In this document: piece by piece, positions 742 through 30,602 of the stretch | How the letters are laid out: each line of letters opens with the position of its first letter | How positions within the stretch are numbered: position 1 is the first letter of the stretch | Source of the DNA: Micromonospora sp. HM5-17 | Lineage (GTDB): Bacteria > Actinomycetota > Actinomycetes > Mycobacteriales > Micromonosporaceae | DNA length: 64,000 nucleotides | Reading direction: 5' to 3' | Assembly: GCF_003762835.1 (NCBI RefSeq) | Contig: NZ_RJWA01000001.1 | Location: forward strand, 682,001-746,000 | Translations under genes and position numbers: made by a program | Notes under the pieces: generated by a model | Databases searched by the model: none | The model's input: only the letters and a program-made list of their open reading frames with translations | What the model was told of the DNA's origin: nothing

Positions 742-2211
742 TCAGTCATCGCTGGGGCTACCGCCGGCGGTCGGCGTCGAGCCGGTGGCGCTCGGCGCGT
801 TGCTCGACGAACCACCTGTCGGGGTGGTCGTCGGCTCCGTCGTCGGCGCGGTCGTCGGTGGCGTCGGGATGGTCGTCGGCGTCGTCGGCGTGACGGTCGG
901 CATGCTGGTGGGCGGCTTGGTGGTCGGCGGCGTGGTCGTCGGTGGCTTCGTCGTCTTGGACGGCGTCGGACGCGGCGACGGCGTCGTCGGCGGCCGGGTG
1001 GTGGGGCTGGTGGTCGGTGCCGGCACCGCCGGGAAGACCCGGGTCGCGGCGTAGAACCGCGACCACCAGACCGTGGAGACCTTCACCACGTCGCCGGTGG
1101 TCGGCGCGTGCACCATCTTGCCGTCGCCGATGTACATCCCGACGTGGTGGATGGAGGTCCAGCTGCTGCCGGAGGCGAAGAAGAGCAGGTCACCGGGGAG
1201 CAGCGCCTCCCGGGCCACCGTCTGGCTCCGGGTGCCGTTGTACTGGTCCCGCGACACGCGGGGCAGCGTCTTGCCCTGGGACCGGTAGGCGGCCCAGACC
1301 AGGCCGGAGCAGTCGAACCGGTCCGGCCCCTCGGCGCCCCACTGGTACGGGTCGCCCCGCTGGGCGAGGGCGTATTTCACCGCGCCGAGCGCCTTCGGGT
1401 TGGCGACCAGACCGTTGACGCTGTCCAGCCCGATCTCGTTGCCGATCCGCTGCTCTGCCGCCTCCCGTTCGCGTTCGATCTCCGCGAGCTTCTCCGCGTT
1501 CTCGCGCTTCAGCTTGAGCAGCGCGGCGGAGCGCTCCTTGTACTTCTTCTCCGCCTCGGTGAAGGCGGCGGCCGCCTGCTGGCTCTCCGCCACCGCCTTC
1601 TGGTACGCGGCCTCGGCCTGCTGCTGCGCGGCCAGCGCGCGGTTCACCTCGGCGGCGGCGAGGCTCGTGTCCCGGGGGCTCCGCTCCTCGCCGCGCTGGA
1701 TCCGCTTCAGCAGCTCCAGACCGTGCAGATCGGACCCGAACGCGCCGGGCGGCAGGCCGGCGGCGTCCTTGAGCGCCTCGGCCGCCGCACTGTCCGCGAT
1801 CGCCCGCGCCTGCTCCAGCTCGGCGCGGGCCGTGGCGAGGGCGGTGTTGGCGGCCGTCACGGCGGCCGCCTTCTCGTCCCGCGTCTGGCGCAGCTTCAGG
1901 AGCTCCTCGCCGAGGGTGGCGACCTCGACCTCGAGCGCGTAGATCTGGCTCGCCAGTGGACCGGTCACCGTGGGGATCTGGAGATTGGGTGGCACCGAGG
2001 GGGAGGATCCGGGGCTCGGGGGCGCCCCGGCCGGCACCGGCCGGACACCCGGATCGGGAACGGTGTTGGGTGTGGCGGGTTCGGCCCAGACCGGAGTCGC
2101 GAGCACCCCGGCGACGATCGCGCCGACCAGGGCGGACCACACCAACGGGCGGAGCACCGGCGACACCGTGCCGTCCGTCCGCTCCGCCTGTCCGCGCCCG
2201 CTGTTCGCCAT
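742..2211 (-). CDS. Secreted NlpC/P60 peptidoglycan endopeptidase with coiled coil and Thr/Pro tail
   Basis: Predicted cell-wall hydrolase cutting peptide stems of peptidoglycan outside the membrane. The 489-residue product has a signal peptide or anchor (about residues 18-43), a Pro-rich linker, a long Ala/Glu-rich coiled coil (about 85-255) and an NlpC/P60 domain (about 270-395) with the catalytic Cys301 in DRFDCSGLVW, His355/356 in IHHVGMYIG and a third polar residue at His368. The order coiled coil then NlpC/P60 matches the RipA/RipC type of actinobacterial hydrolases. Unusually, about 90 residues of Thr/Pro-rich sequence follow the catalytic domain and end in a Ser/Gly-rich stretch; such tails often span or bind the wall. 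The ATG at 2211 was chosen over an upstream start at 2289 because the signal peptide follows it closely and GGGGAAG precedes it. Confidence 0.9.
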   Translation of the reverse strand: MANSGRGQAERTDGTVSPVLRPLVWSALVGAIVAGVLATPVWAEPATPNTVPDPGVRPVPAGAPPSPGSSPSVPPNLQIPTVTGPLASQIYALEVEVATLGEELLKLRQTRDEKAAAVTAANTALATARAELEQARAIADSAAAEALKDAAGLPPGAFGSDLHGLELLKRIQRGEERSPRDTSLAAAEVNRALAAQQQAEAAYQKAVAESQQAAAAFTEAEKKYKERSAALLKLKRENAEKLAEIEREREAAEQRIGNEIGLDSVNGLVANPKALGAVKYALAQRGDPYQWGAEGPDRFDCSGLVWAAYRSQGKTLPRVSRDQYNGTRSQTVAREALLPGDLLFFASGSSWTSIHHVGMYIGDGKMVHAPTTGDVVKVSTVWWSRFYAATRVFPAVPAPTTSPTTRPPTTPSPRPTPSKTTKPPTTTPPTTKPPTSMPTVTPTTPTTIPTPPTTAPTTEPTTTPTGGSSSNAPSATGSTPTAGGSPSDD

Positions 2212-2408
2212 GCCGCTTCCCCGTTCCGGCGTACCGTACGGTCGCCCGTGCGCGCCGTCGGCCCGCCTTGGTGCTGTGTCCCGTCCCACTTCGTCTTACC
2301 GGAATGTGCCGGTGATGTCGATCCGGAGCAGGTAACGAGACGCTGAGAAGGCGGTGAACCAGGTCGCGTTCGGTGACGGTCCGGCGAGGACGCCCCGCGC
2401 CCGCCACG

Positions 2409-2439: not shown

Positions 2440-3450
2440 GTGGCTGCGATGGACGCCGGACGCAAGCGTGAGCTGGAACAGAAGGTGTACGGCGGGGAGC
2501 GACTGAGCCGCGCCGACGGCGAGGCGCTCTACGCGAGCGACGACCTGGTCTGGCTCGGTCGGCTGGCCCACCACCGCCGTACGGAGGCGCACGGCGACCG
2601 GGTGACGTTCGAGGTCGGCGGCGGGGAGCCGCTGTCGTCCGGGCACGACTATCCGGAGCTGCTGCGCCACCTCGCCGCGACGCCGGGCGGCGTGCCGGAC
2701 GTGGTCACCGCCACCGACATCCGGCGGTTCGAGGCGGCCACCGGGCGGCCCGCCGAGGAACTTCTCGACGAACTCGCCGCCGCCGGGCTGGCGTCGCTGG
2801 CCGGCGGCGACGCGGGGATCTTCGACCCCGAGGTCCGGTCGCGGGCCGCCGGCACGCCGATCGACTGGGCGGACTGGGCACGTATCCATCGCCTCGCACA
2901 CGCCCGGGGGCTCCGGACGTCGGCGACGATGCGCTACGGCCAGGGTGAGGAATCTCGGCACCGGATCGACCACCTGCTCCGGTTGCGGGAGCTTCAGGAC
3001 GAGACGGGGGGATTCCAGGTCTTCGTACCGATACGCCACGAGCACCCGGCCACCGGTCCGGGGGGCGCGGGCGGGACCGGCGCCGGAAACCCGCCCCGGG
3101 CGGCCTCGCCGGCGGAGTCGCTGAAGACCGTCGCCATCTCCCGGCTGCTCCTCGACAACGTGCCGCATCTGCGGTGCTCCTGGGCCACGGACGGGCTCCC
3201 GGTCGCCCAGCTCGCGCTGAGCTTCGGCGTGGACGACCTGGCCGGTTCACCGGCCGACCGGATGGACTCGCTGGCCGACGTGGCGGACTCGCAGAGCACC
3301 GCCCCGTCCCGGGACGAGCTGCTGAACCTGATCTGGGACGCCGGTTTTCGCCCCGTGGAACGGGACGCCCGGTACGCGGTGCTGCGCGAGTACGACGCCC
3401 CGGTCCCGCTGGCGCAGCGCCGGGCCGAGCCGCAGCACATCTGGTCCTGA
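2440..3450 (+). CDS. MqnE-like (aminofutalosine synthase family) protein lacking the radical-SAM cysteines
   Basis: The 336-residue product follows the MqnE family at both ends: residues 1-57 (EQKVYGGERLSRADGEALY, SDDLVWLGRLA) and from about residue 90 on (DVVTATDIRRFEA, GIFDPEVRSRA, ATMRYGQ, RLRELQDETGGFQVF, LLLDNVPHLRCSW, LSFGVDDL). MqnE is a radical-SAM enzyme joining a chorismate-derived enolpyruvyl ether to S-adenosylmethionine. The stretch that normally carries the CX3CX2C cluster motif and the start of the barrel is missing: after GDRVTFEV the sequence passes through a short Gly-rich link (about 58-69) to DYPELLRHL. No Cys codons for the motif occur in any nearby frame, so this looks like an in-frame deletion, not a frameshift. 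It cannot be a standard MqnE. The GTG start has GGAGG five bases upstream; DUF4229 follows. Confidence 0.8.
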   Translation: MAAMDAGRKRELEQKVYGGERLSRADGEALYASDDLVWLGRLAHHRRTEAHGDRVTFEVGGGEPLSSGHDYPELLRHLAATPGGVPDVVTATDIRRFEAATGRPAEELLDELAAAGLASLAGGDAGIFDPEVRSRAAGTPIDWADWARIHRLAHARGLRTSATMRYGQGEESRHRIDHLLRLRELQDETGGFQVFVPIRHEHPATGPGGAGGTGAGNPPRAASPAESLKTVAISRLLLDNVPHLRCSWATDGLPVAQLALSFGVDDLAGSPADRMDSLADVADSQSTAPSRDELLNLIWDAGFRPVERDARYAVLREYDAPVPLAQRRAEPQHIWS

Positions 3451-3577
3451 CCGCGGCGGACTCGACGCGGGTCACCCGTACCCGGGCGCCCTGATCCGGG
3501 CCGGTCGACCCGTCCACCAGCCTGTCGGCCCGACCGTGGTGGGGTTCCCGCCCCGGCTCACGTACCCTCGACTGGTC

Positions 3578-4348
3578 ATGACTGAGCGACCCGAGCGGAC
3601 GCCGTCCTTTCCTCGCCGGGACGAGGAGGGGCGGATCGTCGTGCTCGCCGACCTGCTCGGGCTCACGTTGGCCGGGGTCGTCGTCGGTGTCGTGGCCCTG
3701 CTGGTCTTCGACTGGAGCTTCGCGCTCCTCGGCCTGGGCGACGCCGGTCGGGCGAGCGGCTGGTTGGCCGTGGTCCTGCCGGCCTGGGTCTTCGTCGAGG
3801 AGTTTCGGGCCTGGAGGTTCGGCGCGGCCCGGGTCGCCGCCGCGCTGGTGGCCGCCGCCGTGGGGATCAGCGCCGGACTGTTGGCGGCCGGGCTGGCCGC
3901 CGGGGCGCCGCCGCTGGTCTCGGGCGGGCTGGCCGCCGCTGTCTTCGCCATGGCGTACGGGTTGATCTGGTTTGTCGGCGTCCGGTGGCTCGCCAACCGG
4001 ACGGGCTGTCGGGGTGGGGCGGGGATGAGTCCTGCGGTGAAGTACACGCTGGGCCGGATCGGGCTCTTCGTGGCGGTGTTCCTGCCGCTCTGGCCGGTCG
4101 AGATGAACGTCTTCCTCAAGCTCATCCTCGCCCTGGCGTTCTCCGCCGCGCTGTCGTTCTTCCTGCTTCGGGGCTGGCGCGACGAGATGGCGCGGCAACT
4201 CGCCGACGCGGCGGAGCGGCGCAGGGCGGAGAAGGATCGGCTGCGCGCCGCACTGGCCGGCGAGGACGGCGTCACCGGCGGCGACGGGCCGGCGGGGCAG
4301 AAGCCGGTGGAGCAGAAGCCGACCGACGGGTCCGCCGACCCGCGCTGA
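3578..4348 (+). CDS. DUF4229 family membrane protein
   Basis: A 256-residue integral membrane protein. An N-terminal half with about four hydrophobic segments (residues 25-145) is followed by a segment beginning SPAVKYTLGRIGLFV that resembles the DUF4229 domain: two membrane helices and then a charged helix (RDEMARQLADAAERRRAEKDRLR) typical of its end. The tail is polar and Lys/Pro-rich. The function is unknown; DUF4229 genes often neighbour mqnE in actinobacteria, which fits the gene upstream. The ATG at 3578 has no ribosome binding site, but TACCCT lies nine bases before it, so the mRNA may be leaderless or nearly so. The gene is convergent with the C39-like peptidase gene and separated from it by a hairpin. 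Confidence 0.8.
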   Translation: MTERPERTPSFPRRDEEGRIVVLADLLGLTLAGVVVGVVALLVFDWSFALLGLGDAGRASGWLAVVLPAWVFVEEFRAWRFGAARVAAALVAAAVGISAGLLAAGLAAGAPPLVSGGLAAAVFAMAYGLIWFVGVRWLANRTGCRGGAGMSPAVKYTLGRIGLFVAVFLPLWPVEMNVFLKLILALAFSAALSFFLLRGWRDEMARQLADAAERRRAEKDRLRAALAGEDGVTGGDGPAGQKPVEQKPTDGSADPR

Positions 4349-17218: not shown

Positions 17219-20469
<3,251 letters not shown>

Positions 20470-22909: not shown

Positions 22910-24003
22910 CTTGCTCCGTGCACGGACATCACTTTCCGGAGCCGGGTGACGGTCCCGCCAGCGGCCTGCTCGGTCAGGTCGAGGCGGCCGAGGCGGCGCT
23001 GCGGGCCGCCGCCGAGCGTGGCCGGCCCGGTGCCCCGGACGGCGCGGCCGGCGACACCGACCCGCAGGAGTACTTCACCGCGTTGATCGAGGCCGACCAG
23101 AAGATCGAGCCTCGGGACTGGATGCCGGACGCCTACCGGCGGACGCTCATCCGGCAGATCGCGCAGCACGCGCATTCCGAGATCATCGGTATGCAACCGG
23201 AGGGGAACTGGATCACCCGCGCACCCTCGCTCAAACGCAAGGCGATCCTGCTGGCCAAGGTCCAGGACGAGGCCGGACACGGCCTCTACCTGTACGCCGC
23301 CGCCGAGACCCTCGGGGTGAGCCGGGACGAACTGGTCGAGCTGCTGCTGGCGGGGCGGCAGAAGTACAGCTCGATCTTCAACTATCCGACCCTGACCTGG
23401 GCGGACGTCGGTGCCATCGGCTGGCTGGTGGACGGCGCGGCGATCGTCAACCAGGTGCCGCTCTGCCGCTGCTCCTACGGGCCGTACGCGCGGGCGATGA
23501 TCCGGATCTGCAAGGAGGAGTCCTTCCACCAGCGGCAGGGATACGAGATCCTCTACACCCTGGCGCACGGCACGCCCGCGCAGCGGGAGATGGCCCAGGA
23601 CGCGGTGAACCGGTGGTGGTACCCCTCACTGGCGATGTTCGGCCCGCCGGACCGCGACTCCACCCACTCCGAGCAGTCGATGGCGTGGAAGATCAAGCGG
23701 TTCTCCAACGACGAGCTCCGGCAGCGCTTCGTCGACATGTGCGTGCCGCAGGCCGAGATCCTCGGCCTGCGGATCCCCGACCCGGAACTCCGCTGGAACC
23801 CCGAGCGGCAGTCGTACGACTTCACCCCGCCGGACTACGCCGAGCTGATGCGGGTGATCTCCGGTGACGGACCGTGCAACCGGCAGCGAATGGCGCGCCG
23901 GCGTCGCGCCCACGCCGAGGGTGCCTGGGTCCGGGAGGCCGCCGCGGCGTACGCCGCCAAGCGGGCGGCCCGGGCGACGGCCCCGACGGAGGTGGCGGCG
24001 TGA
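22894..24003 (+). CDS. paaA: 1,2-phenylacetyl-CoA epoxidase catalytic subunit PaaA
   Basis: Catalytic di-iron subunit of the multicomponent monooxygenase that epoxidises the ring of phenylacetyl-CoA, the key step of aerobic phenylacetate breakdown. The 369-residue product has the ferritin-like helical core with iron ligands in [42 protein letters not shown] and [13 protein letters not shown]. The start is uncertain: neither ATG 22894 nor the in-frame GTG 22918 (VHGHHFPEP) has a ribosome binding site. It is first in a paaABCDE unit in which each next start overlaps the preceding stop, except paaC-paaD. Confidence 0.93.
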
Positions 24004-28177: not shown

Positions 28178-29368
28178 GTGACGGCGAGCCGGGACATCGA
28201 CGACATCCTGCAACGCGGCGCGGACGGCGGGCGGATCACGCCCGAGGAGGCGCTGCTGCTCTACACCGAGGCGCCCTTCCACGCGCTCGGCGAGGCGGCC
28301 GACGCGGTACGGCGACGCCGCTACCCGGACAACATCGTCACGTACCTGATCGACCGCAACATCAACTACACCAACGTCTGCGTCACCGCGTGCAGGTTCT
28401 GCGCCTTCTACCGGCCGCCGAAGCACAAGGAGGGCTGGACCCACCCGACCGAGGAGATCCTTCGGCGCTGCGGTGAGGCGGTCGAGCTGGGCGCCACCCA
28501 GGTGATGCTCCAGGGCGGCCACCACCCCGACTACGGCGTCGAGTACTACGAGGAGCTCTTCTCCGCGGTCAAGCGGGCGTACCCGCAGCTCGCGATCCAC
28601 TCGATCGGGCCGAGCGAGATCCTGCACATGGCGAAGGTCTCCGGCGTCAGCCTCGAGGAGGCGATCCGCCGGATCAAGGCCGCCGGGCTGGACTCGATCG
28701 CCGGGGCCGGCGCCGAGATGCTGCCGGACCGGCCGCGCAAGGCGATCGCCCCGCTGAAGGAGTCCGGCGCCCGCTGGCTGGAGGTGATGGAGCTCGCCCA
28801 CCGGCAGGGGATCGAGTCGACCGCCACCATGATGATGGGGACCGGCGAGACCAACGCCGAGCGGATCGAGCACATGCGCATGATCCGGGACGTGCAGGAC
28901 CGCACCCGGGGCTTCCGGGCCTTCATCCCCTGGACGTACCAGCCGGAGAACAACCACCTCAAGGGGCGGACCCAGGCGACCACGATGGAGTACCTGCGGC
29001 TCATCGCGGTGGCCCGGCTCTTCTTCGACACCGTTCCGCACCTCCAGGCGTCGTGGCTGACCACGGGCAAGGAGGTCGGTCAGCTCGCCCTGCACATGGG
29101 GGTGGACGACCTCGGGTCGATCATGCTGGAGGAGAACGTCATCTCCTCGGCCGGCGCGCGGCACCGCGCCAACCTGCACGAGCTGATCTGGATGATCCGC
29201 TCCGCCGACCGGGTCCCGGCACAGCGTGACACCCTTTACCGCCACCTCCGGGTGCACCGCACCCCGGCCGACGACCCGACCGACGACCGGGTGGTGTCGC
29301 ACTTCTCGTCGATCGCGCTGCCGGGCGGCGGGGTGGGTCGACCGCTGCCTCTGGTCGAGGCCCGCTGA
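28178..29368 (+). CDS. mqnC: Dehypoxanthine futalosine cyclase
   Basis: A 396-residue radical-SAM enzyme that cyclises dehypoxanthinylfutalosine, the third step of the futalosine menaquinone route. The cluster motif CX3CX2C is intact (Cys68, Cys72, Cys75 in NVCVTACRFCAFYR). Other MqnC hallmarks are LIDRNINYTNVC, QVMLQGGHHPDYGVEYYEEL, LDSIAGAGAEML, TATMMMGTGET, FIPWTYQPENNHL and LHMGVDDLGSIMLEENV. The GTG start is supported by the leaderless -10 element. The contrast with the mqnE-like gene, in which the same motif is gone, is notable. Confidence 0.95.
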   Translation: MTASRDIDDILQRGADGGRITPEEALLLYTEAPFHALGEAADAVRRRRYPDNIVTYLIDRNINYTNVCVTACRFCAFYRPPKHKEGWTHPTEEILRRCGEAVELGATQVMLQGGHHPDYGVEYYEELFSAVKRAYPQLAIHSIGPSEILHMAKVSGVSLEEAIRRIKAAGLDSIAGAGAEMLPDRPRKAIAPLKESGARWLEVMELAHRQGIESTATMMMGTGETNAERIEHMRMIRDVQDRTRGFRAFIPWTYQPENNHLKGRTQATTMEYLRLIAVARLFFDTVPHLQASWLTTGKEVGQLALHMGVDDLGSIMLEENVISSAGARHRANLHELIWMIRSADRVPAQRDTLYRHLRVHRTPADDPTDDRVVSHFSSIALPGGGVGRPLPLVEAR

Positions 29369-29891: not shown

Positions 29892-30602
29892 GTGACCCGC
29901 ACCCCATCCGGACGCCGTGCCAGCCTGGACAAGCAGCCGCACGAGGTTGCGGCGATGTTCGACGAGGTGGCGTCCCGGTACGACCTGACCAACACCGTCA
30001 TCTCGTTCGGTCAGGACCGGCGCTGGCGGCGGTCCACCATGGCCGCCCTGGAGCCGAACCCGGGCGACCGCGTCCTGGACGTGGGGGCCGGCACCGGCGT
30101 CTCCACCGCGGAGCTGGCCACCTCCGGGGCGTACGCGGTCGGGGTGGACCTCTCCATCGGCATGCTCCGGGCCGGCCGCCGGGTACGCCCCGACGTGCCG
30201 TTGCTGGCGGGTGACGCGCTGCGCCTGCCGTTCCCGGACGAGAGCTTCGACGCGGTCACGATCTCGTTCGCGCTGCGGAACGTGGTCGACCCGGTGGCGG
30301 CGCTGCGGGAGATGGCCCGGGTGACCCGCCCCGGCGGCCGGCTCGTGGTCTGCGAGTTCAGTACGCCGACCAACCCGCTCTTCCGGACCGTCTACCTCTC
30401 CTACCTGATGCGGTCGTTGCCGGCCGTGGCCCGGATGGTGGCCAGCAACCCCGACGCGTACGTCTACCTCGCCGAGTCGATCCGCGCCTGGCCGGACCAG
30501 GCCGGACTGGCGGCGCGGATCGCCAGCGCGGGATGGGAGCGGGTGGCCTGGCGGAACCTGACCGGCGGAGTCGTGGCGCTGCATCGCGCGATTCGTTCGT
30601 GA
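29892..30602 (+). CDS. menG: Demethylmenaquinone methyltransferase
   Basis: A 236-residue SAM-dependent methyltransferase of the UbiE/MenG family, making menaquinone from demethylmenaquinone. Motifs are [27 protein letters not shown] (UbiE signature 1), [15 protein letters not shown] (SAM motif I), [25 protein letters not shown] (UbiE signature 2) and [13 protein letters not shown]. The short variant is typical of actinobacteria. Its GTG start is probably leaderless. It lies near the other menaquinone genes but in its own transcription unit. Confidence 0.94.

Follow-up and report, generated by a model that had tools for sequence, protein, structure and literature searches.

The window, by which we mean the whole stretch of 64,000 nucleotides that was analysed, carries an open reading frame at 2440–3450 that encodes 336 amino acids, the start typical of the family being the ATG at 2449. 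It is preceded by a divergently oriented gene of the NlpC/P60 family and followed by a frame of 270 codons in which a small membrane-type protein and a DUF4229 protein, encoded by two separate genes in relatives, are read as one; mqnA, mqnC and a gene for a UbiE-type methyltransferase lie further along (Table 1). A preliminary description of this DNA had taken MqnA and MqnC to be intact, which was confirmed for both (genes beginning at 19621 and 28178, respectively). Between them, at 22918–24000, a phenylacetate oxygenase gene of the PaaA/PaaC type was noticed, and related phenylacetate-type genes are also present in the mqn regions of other genera.

Table 1. Features of the mqnE locus and of the neighbouring menaquinone genes (positions in the window).
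Feature	Position	Strand	Basis or remark
NlpC/P60 family gene, divergent upstream neighbour	742..2289	-	PF00877; marks the conserved mqnE locus
mqnE orthologue lacking the radical-SAM cluster region	2449..3450	+	Alternative start GTG 2440; GGAGGA upstream
N-terminal segment, conserved	2449..2610	+	Canonical residues 1-54; three helices and one strand in the model
Gly-rich junction	2611..2637	+	Site of the missing canonical residues 60-113
Remaining core, little or no constraint	2638..2919	+	Omega for canonical residues 55-213
C-terminal segment, moderately constrained	2920..3447	+	CofH_C domain and tail RRAEPQHIWS
Small membrane-type and DUF4229 protein, one frame	3536..4348	+	PF14012; family-type start near 3578
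mqnA, intact	19621..20469	+	PF02621 263.8 bits; alignment
mqnC, intact with CX3CX2C	28178..29368	+	Profile matches, alignment
UbiE-type methyltransferase gene adjoining mqnC	29955..30602	+	PF01209 198.1 bits

The Gene Occupies the Native mqnE Locus

Both ends of the encoded protein follow aminofutalosine synthase, as had been stated: the MqnE model TIGR03700 matched both, with a total score (250.9 bits) under the cut-off of 434.55. The match to the radical-SAM family PF04055 (27.2 bits) was also below its gathering cut-off of 29.5, and the CofH_C domain PF19288 reached 37.5 bits with a cut-off of 27. The gene had been called a paralogue; however, the gene order and the search of its own genome identified it as the orthologue at the native mqnE locus. 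When this genome (6.17 Mb, 51 contigs, 96% complete) was searched with the window protein, the protein itself and two further places were retrieved, the MqnC gene and a CofGH-type gene, and no second MqnE was found; nor was one found with TIGR03700 in the seven genomes of the genus sample, which includes the window genome (G000). The gene tree, which joined the window gene and four others of its genus with an SH-aLRT of 99, was in agreement with the gene order in assigning it as the MqnE orthologue.

The NlpC/P60 gene was also present beside canonical mqnE in the compared records of named Micromonospora, Planosporangium, Jidongwangia and Actinoplanes, and this upstream neighbour was common to the full-length and the shortened forms described below; the downstream genes were common to most of them. 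Genes for the membrane-type and DUF4229 proteins followed directly downstream in most of the compared loci, with several genes intervening in G004 and G005 and one in G339 and in Planosporangium mesophilum, while the DUF4229 gene alone was grouped downstream in G101. A match to either gene within the fetched stretch was obtained for 71 of 80 named loci, often a weak one in Streptomyces.

The Cluster-Binding Region Is Missing in Frame

The alignment to a canonical sister protein confirmed that the segment with the cluster motif is missing, since canonical residues 60–113 (54 amino acids, including CSASCAYC) are absent after residue 62 of the window protein. The deletion keeps the reading frame, and no CX3CX2C was found in any of the six frames between window positions 2301 and 3600, nor in the alignment; the protein has a single cysteine, at 246. 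The preliminary description had also denied Cys codons in other frames nearby; the +1 frame has several, which is of no consequence. According to the secondary structure seen in the low-confidence model of a canonical protein, the missing part corresponds to the cluster loop, the first helix and the second strand of the core. Furthermore, the core that flanks the deletion has diverged as well.

The structure model of the window protein, built from an alignment of 27 sequences, had a mean pLDDT of 69.6 and a pTM of 0.73, and its N-terminal segment was the best modelled (block pLDDT of 76–94 for residues 1–60); the control model of the canonical protein was poor (pLDDT 62.1). A Foldseek search with this moderate-confidence model retrieved 6xig_A first (E 1e-19), together with 6xi9, followed by ThiH, HydE and biotin synthase.

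Graded Divergence of MqnE in the Genus and Retention of the Other Pathway Genes

The preliminary description had held that intact homologues in all sister species would make the deletion a local error or a fresh pseudogene. This was not so for the six other genomes of the genus: two carry a canonical mqnE (G004 and G001), three a strongly diverged gene with the motif and one a gene without it, the window gene with its deleted region completing the series. The TIGR03700 scores followed this order, with 516 bits in both G004 and G001, 370 in G005, 365 in G003, 350 in G002 and 264 in G006, and 218 plus 33 bits when the model was run on the window genome. In G005, G003 and G002, CX3CX2C is kept and many otherwise conserved residues are changed, whereas the mqnE of G006, open over 396 residues, has lost the motif in a different manner from the window gene. 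The diverged cluster-bearing genes of G002, G003 and G005, like that of G032 (see below), may still be active. The window genome is also smaller (6.17 Mb) than those of the other six members (8.3–9.8 Mb), possibly by general genome reduction.

The rest of the pathway was retained throughout the genus. MqnA and MqnD were detected in all seven genomes, MqnB over its cut-off and MqnC intact in all seven as well, and no MenD was detected over the cut-off in any of them, the model matching only below it. Pairwise omega values within the genus were 0.05–0.37 for MqnA, MqnB and MqnC and 0.19–0.33 for MqnD, with 0.56–0.60 in the three MqnD pairs of G003, where an insertion in that protein disturbs the trimmed alignment. 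This insertion is a long loop rich in Gly, Asp and Ser; shorter ones were seen in the MqnD of G002, G005 and G006, so that loop growth is not confined to MqnE. Both mqnB and mqnD, for which a search had been advised, were located elsewhere in the window genome, and their products, like MqnA and MqnC, are intact. Two options had been offered at the outset, a true MqnE elsewhere or a first coupling step that is done differently; the former received no support, no second mqnE with CX3CX2C having been found in this draft assembly (96% complete), and the latter was retained.

Selection Acts Mainly on the N-Terminal Segment

Omega was determined by the Nei-Gojobori method with bootstraps, and a neutral simulation with GC bias gave values of 1.0–1.7. 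Between the window gene and the canonical gene of G004, omega was 0.09 [0.02–0.26] for the N-terminal segment, 1.01 [0.61–1.69] for the core (canonical residues 55–213) and 0.66 [0.44–0.94] for the C-terminal segment. The N-terminal values were 0.23 [0.10–0.53] with G005, 0.31 [0.11–0.85] with G006 and 0.44 [0.19–1.04], where neutrality was not excluded, with G002; the C-terminal ones were 0.51–0.53 with these three genomes. The comparison of G006 with G004 yielded 0.17 [0.06–0.38] for the N-terminal segment and 0.88 [0.60–1.31], indistinguishable from neutral, for the C-terminal one. As a reference, three canonical pairs showed 0.07–0.23 (N), 0.18–0.22 (core) and 0.14–0.18 (C).

Similar results were obtained with the shortened genes ("mini-MqnE", see below). 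Four of them from genus g4 compared with canonical G022 gave 0.10–0.27 (N) and 0.33–0.57 (C), and G105 of genus g11 gave 0.26 and 0.85 [0.58–1.26], the latter indistinguishable from neutral. In seven within-genus mini pairs, omega was 0.22–0.67 for the C-terminal and 0.11–0.85 for the N-terminal segment, plus one N-terminal value of 2.09; neutrality was not excluded either for the highest of the former (G011/G012, 0.85 [0.32–3.08]) or for the latter (G102/G104, at very low dS). Additionally, synonymous divergence in the window pairs was 0.30–0.59 in the N-terminal and 0.48–0.54 in the C-terminal segment; being not consistently lower in the former, it gave no sign of a cause at the DNA or RNA level. 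Among 34 degenerate genes, which had been chosen as open frames, the other two forward frames were open in 0 and 4; at a GC content of 72%, the antisense frame in register was open in 21.

These results do not fit a pseudogene, which would show a broken frame or no constraint. The combination of lost catalytic residues and purifying selection is that of a pseudoenzyme, clear for the N-terminal and moderate for the C-terminal segment, with the exceptions given above.

Mini-MqnE Proteins Are Widespread in the Family

The window protein was used to search 354 genomes of the family, which the nearest named records suggest to be Micromonosporaceae, and a match at E 1e-38 or better was obtained in 327. 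Thirty-six genomes poor in MqnE were followed, 27 without a match (seven of these inferred from gaps in the genome numbering) and nine with a partial match or a raised E-value. None of the 36 had a TIGR03700 match over the cut-off, and PF02621 was present in all of them, at two or more places in 35. Thirty loci from these genomes were read: 29 encode an MqnC that contains CX3CX2C and shares 79–94% identity with the G004 protein, and the remaining one is the mqnE of G032, of full length and diverged.

A short protein first met in the syntenic regions (P0001, 216 aa) was then taken as the query. It scored 43.3 bits with PF19288 (cut-off 27) and 162 bits with TIGR03700 (cut-off 435), so that annotation by the latter cut-off would miss such genes. 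Mini-MqnE genes were detected in 32 of the 36 genomes, from seven genera other than that of the window: 13 in g4, five of five in g11, four of four in g3, six of six in g31, one each in g22 and g36 and two in g41. The question of whether the deletion is conserved in relatives was thus answered in part, with core-deleted forms in all the examined genomes of three other genera. No mini was found in G107 (69% complete), G144 (82%) and G187 (99% complete, 590 contigs); hence some form of mqnE was detected in 351 of the 354 family genomes, the exceptions being incomplete or fragmented assemblies.

The minis consist of the N-terminal segment to about residue 57, a short linker and the C-terminal part from about canonical residue 214, which begins later in g31, where they are shortest (open frames of 168–184 codons). 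The core loss amounts to about 155 residues in most of them, compared with 54 in the window. The tail RR..PQ, followed by IWA, VWA or a variant, was present in all 32, and no stop was found inside the mini matches among those listed. CX3CX2C is absent from 31 of the 32; among the genes with a good match, 34 canonical-type ones of the family were read for the motif. The one mini with the motif (G346; L236, about 1449–2234) keeps CPQRCAFC and has lost most of the remaining core, and may be an intermediate. The mini stop is followed, after about 25–30 bases, by the start of the next gene in several genomes of g4.

At the level of the order, at least 110 of 397 genomes had a match at E 1e-20, and those outside the family, among the matches listed, were full-length-looking or short frames. 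In the gene tree, the window gene stayed with its genus and the minis were placed together elsewhere, on long branches. Nevertheless, a single clade of all cluster-less forms was not rejected (p-AU 0.114), nor was one of the window gene and G006 (p-AU 0.748). With these long branches, the core may have been lost once or more often.

Search for a Substitute Synthase

No gene tied to the loss of MqnE was found in the mqnA–mqnC regions examined. Three candidates from these regions were rejected. A gene near mqnA in G002, G003, G005 and G006 (in G005 at L205:10419-11834, minus strand) encodes an AAA/DUF234 ATPase; it is 92–96% identical across the four genomes, and no counterpart was seen in the regions of G004 and the window that were compared. 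An SNF2/SWIM/aldo-keto cassette, which lies between mqnA and mqnC in six genomes poor in MqnE, was met in canonical G022 too, as were the phenylacetate-type genes in canonical G004.

Seven complete genomes, four MqnE-poor and three canonical, were screened for radical-SAM proteins, and 90 loci of the 147 matches, with some duplicates, were grouped. No group among these loci was present in all four MqnE-poor genomes and absent from the canonical ones; two groups were restricted to two MqnE-poor genomes. The substitute may be family-wide, may not be a radical-SAM protein, or may have been missed. A match in G045 and G064 (L235:8559-9545, plus strand, and L234:8737-9684, minus strand) was rejected as an MqnE relic, since it is a CofH-like protein (334 and 321 bits with the CofGH model). 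It also lacks CX3CX2C and lies beside a flavin monooxygenase-type gene; with it, this enzyme group has a second member devoid of the cluster.

Discussion

To our knowledge, no route to aminofutalosine other than MqnE has been described, and this enzyme was reportedly proposed as an antibiotic target by Carl et al. in 2020. The 33 family genomes without the cluster motif (those of 31 minis, the window and G006) keep MqnA and MqnD, and MqnC wherever it was read; in them, either there is a second synthase or the pathway must be supplied by some other route.

The reading that we favor, with a probability of about 0.5, is that MqnE retains a non-catalytic function while another enzyme makes aminofutalosine. 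It is based on the failure to find a second MqnE, the retention of MqnA to MqnD in the genus, the recurrence of shortened forms in 32 genomes and the purifying selection on the N-terminal segment, weaker on the C-terminal one. As dozens of relatives have even shorter forms with mostly preserved ends, a second, non-catalytic task is probable for the protein; and as the catalytic part is lost, some other enzyme would have to perform the lost reaction, which leads us to infer a substitute synthase. Radical chemistry would have been lost in the window protein, and the earlier view that it lacks the requirements for this chemistry and probably has another role was upheld, the motif region being absent and the ends retained. 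From the kept sequence and the neighborhood, the two ends most likely serve the other menaquinone enzymes as a subunit for docking or assembly, perhaps with the products of nearby genes, the small membrane-type protein and the DUF4229 protein, as partners.

In terms of mechanism, the MqnE of this family would have two jobs, the radical reaction in the core (about residues 55–213) and a non-catalytic one that resides in the N-terminal helices together with the C-terminal part and its tail. Something else may have taken over the radical reaction in several lineages; with the reaction supplied otherwise, the core would erode, the putative stage of the window and its genus, and would finally be excised with the ends kept. 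The window gene would then be an mqnE in the course of an in-frame loss of its binding region for the [4Fe-4S] cluster and SAM. The bolder form of this proposal, in which an undiscovered MqnE-free synthesis of aminofutalosine exists and MqnE has become, perhaps repeatedly, a small, still required non-catalytic mini-MqnE with a second, structural function, is put forward tentatively and at rather less than even odds. Since the ends are retained, MqnE would have a role outside catalysis, which may extend to canonical species.

Alternatively, another enzyme might make aminofutalosine throughout the family, so that a dispensable MqnE decays neutrally and its ends look conserved only since the decay is young. 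The core omega near 1, the graded series within the genus and the weak C-terminal constraint in G006 and G105 fit such a decay, and a shared substitute would leave no lineage-specific replacement to be found, as was the case. Nevertheless, we consider this explanation unlikely: some form of the gene persists in 351 of 354 genomes, minis occupy all the examined genomes of g3 (4), g11 (5) and g31 (6), no internal stop was seen among the mini matches listed, and the N-terminal omega is well under the neutral simulation in most pairs.

A two-part synthase, in which substrate binding is left to the mini and the adenosyl radical comes in trans from a separate radical-SAM protein, would account for the otherwise complete pathway and for the retention of both ends despite the loss of the radical half. 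It appears doubtful, as among the 90 loci of 147 matches no radical-SAM group was confined to the four MqnE-poor genomes, and the canonical EYKITHDAD and IRNR stretches, to which a substrate role can be assigned as a guess, are lost in the window and most minis and partly kept in g41. Still more improbable is that the frame is kept only so that translation continues into the downstream membrane-type and DUF4229 genes. The short distance of 25–30 bases in several g4 genomes would suit this idea; nevertheless, other genes intervene in G339 and in full-length G004 and G005, about 127 bases precede the next family-type start in the window, and such a leader would need no amino-acid-level constraint on the N-terminal segment. 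Finally, an artefact of assembly or sequencing of a normal mqnE, which the preliminary description had already dismissed as far as a sequencing frameshift is concerned, is scarcely credible even for a draft genome of 51 contigs that is 96% complete, as the frame is kept, the surrounding core has diverged too, the motif was lost differently in G006, and longer deletions occur in 32 further genomes, single-contig ones among them (e.g., G013, G028, G101, and G147).

With regard to known systems, the window protein shares with MqnE (TIGR03700; 6xi9/6xig from Pedobacter heparinus) the locus in relatives, the N-terminal helices and the C-terminal part, but lacks CX3CX2C and canonical residues 60–113 and scores 251 bits against a cut-off of 435. 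CofH and MqnC (the TIGR00423 group) give weaker matches over the same regions and share the CofH_C domain; unlike the window protein, both keep the cluster, and both kinds are present separately in the window genome. In the accessible portions of the open-access literature, including PMC3914697, PMC9927152, PMC11994313, PMC4746308 and PMC5738691, no description of an MqnE without its cluster was found. Pseudoenzymes in general are, in the accessible text of PMC10211241, conserved relatives of enzymes without catalytic residues; compared with those described there, the present case differs in that the window genome yielded no active copy of MqnE and that the catalytic half has been physically removed in many relatives of the window gene. 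A comparative study of 2016 (PMC4746308) predicts, in the part accessible, a replacement of MqnD in Mitsuokella and Megamonas and none for MqnE. As in the quinone-pathway replacements covered there, the known enzyme of one step is missing from an Mqn pathway that is complete in all other respects; here, however, the old MqnE protein has been trimmed and not lost.
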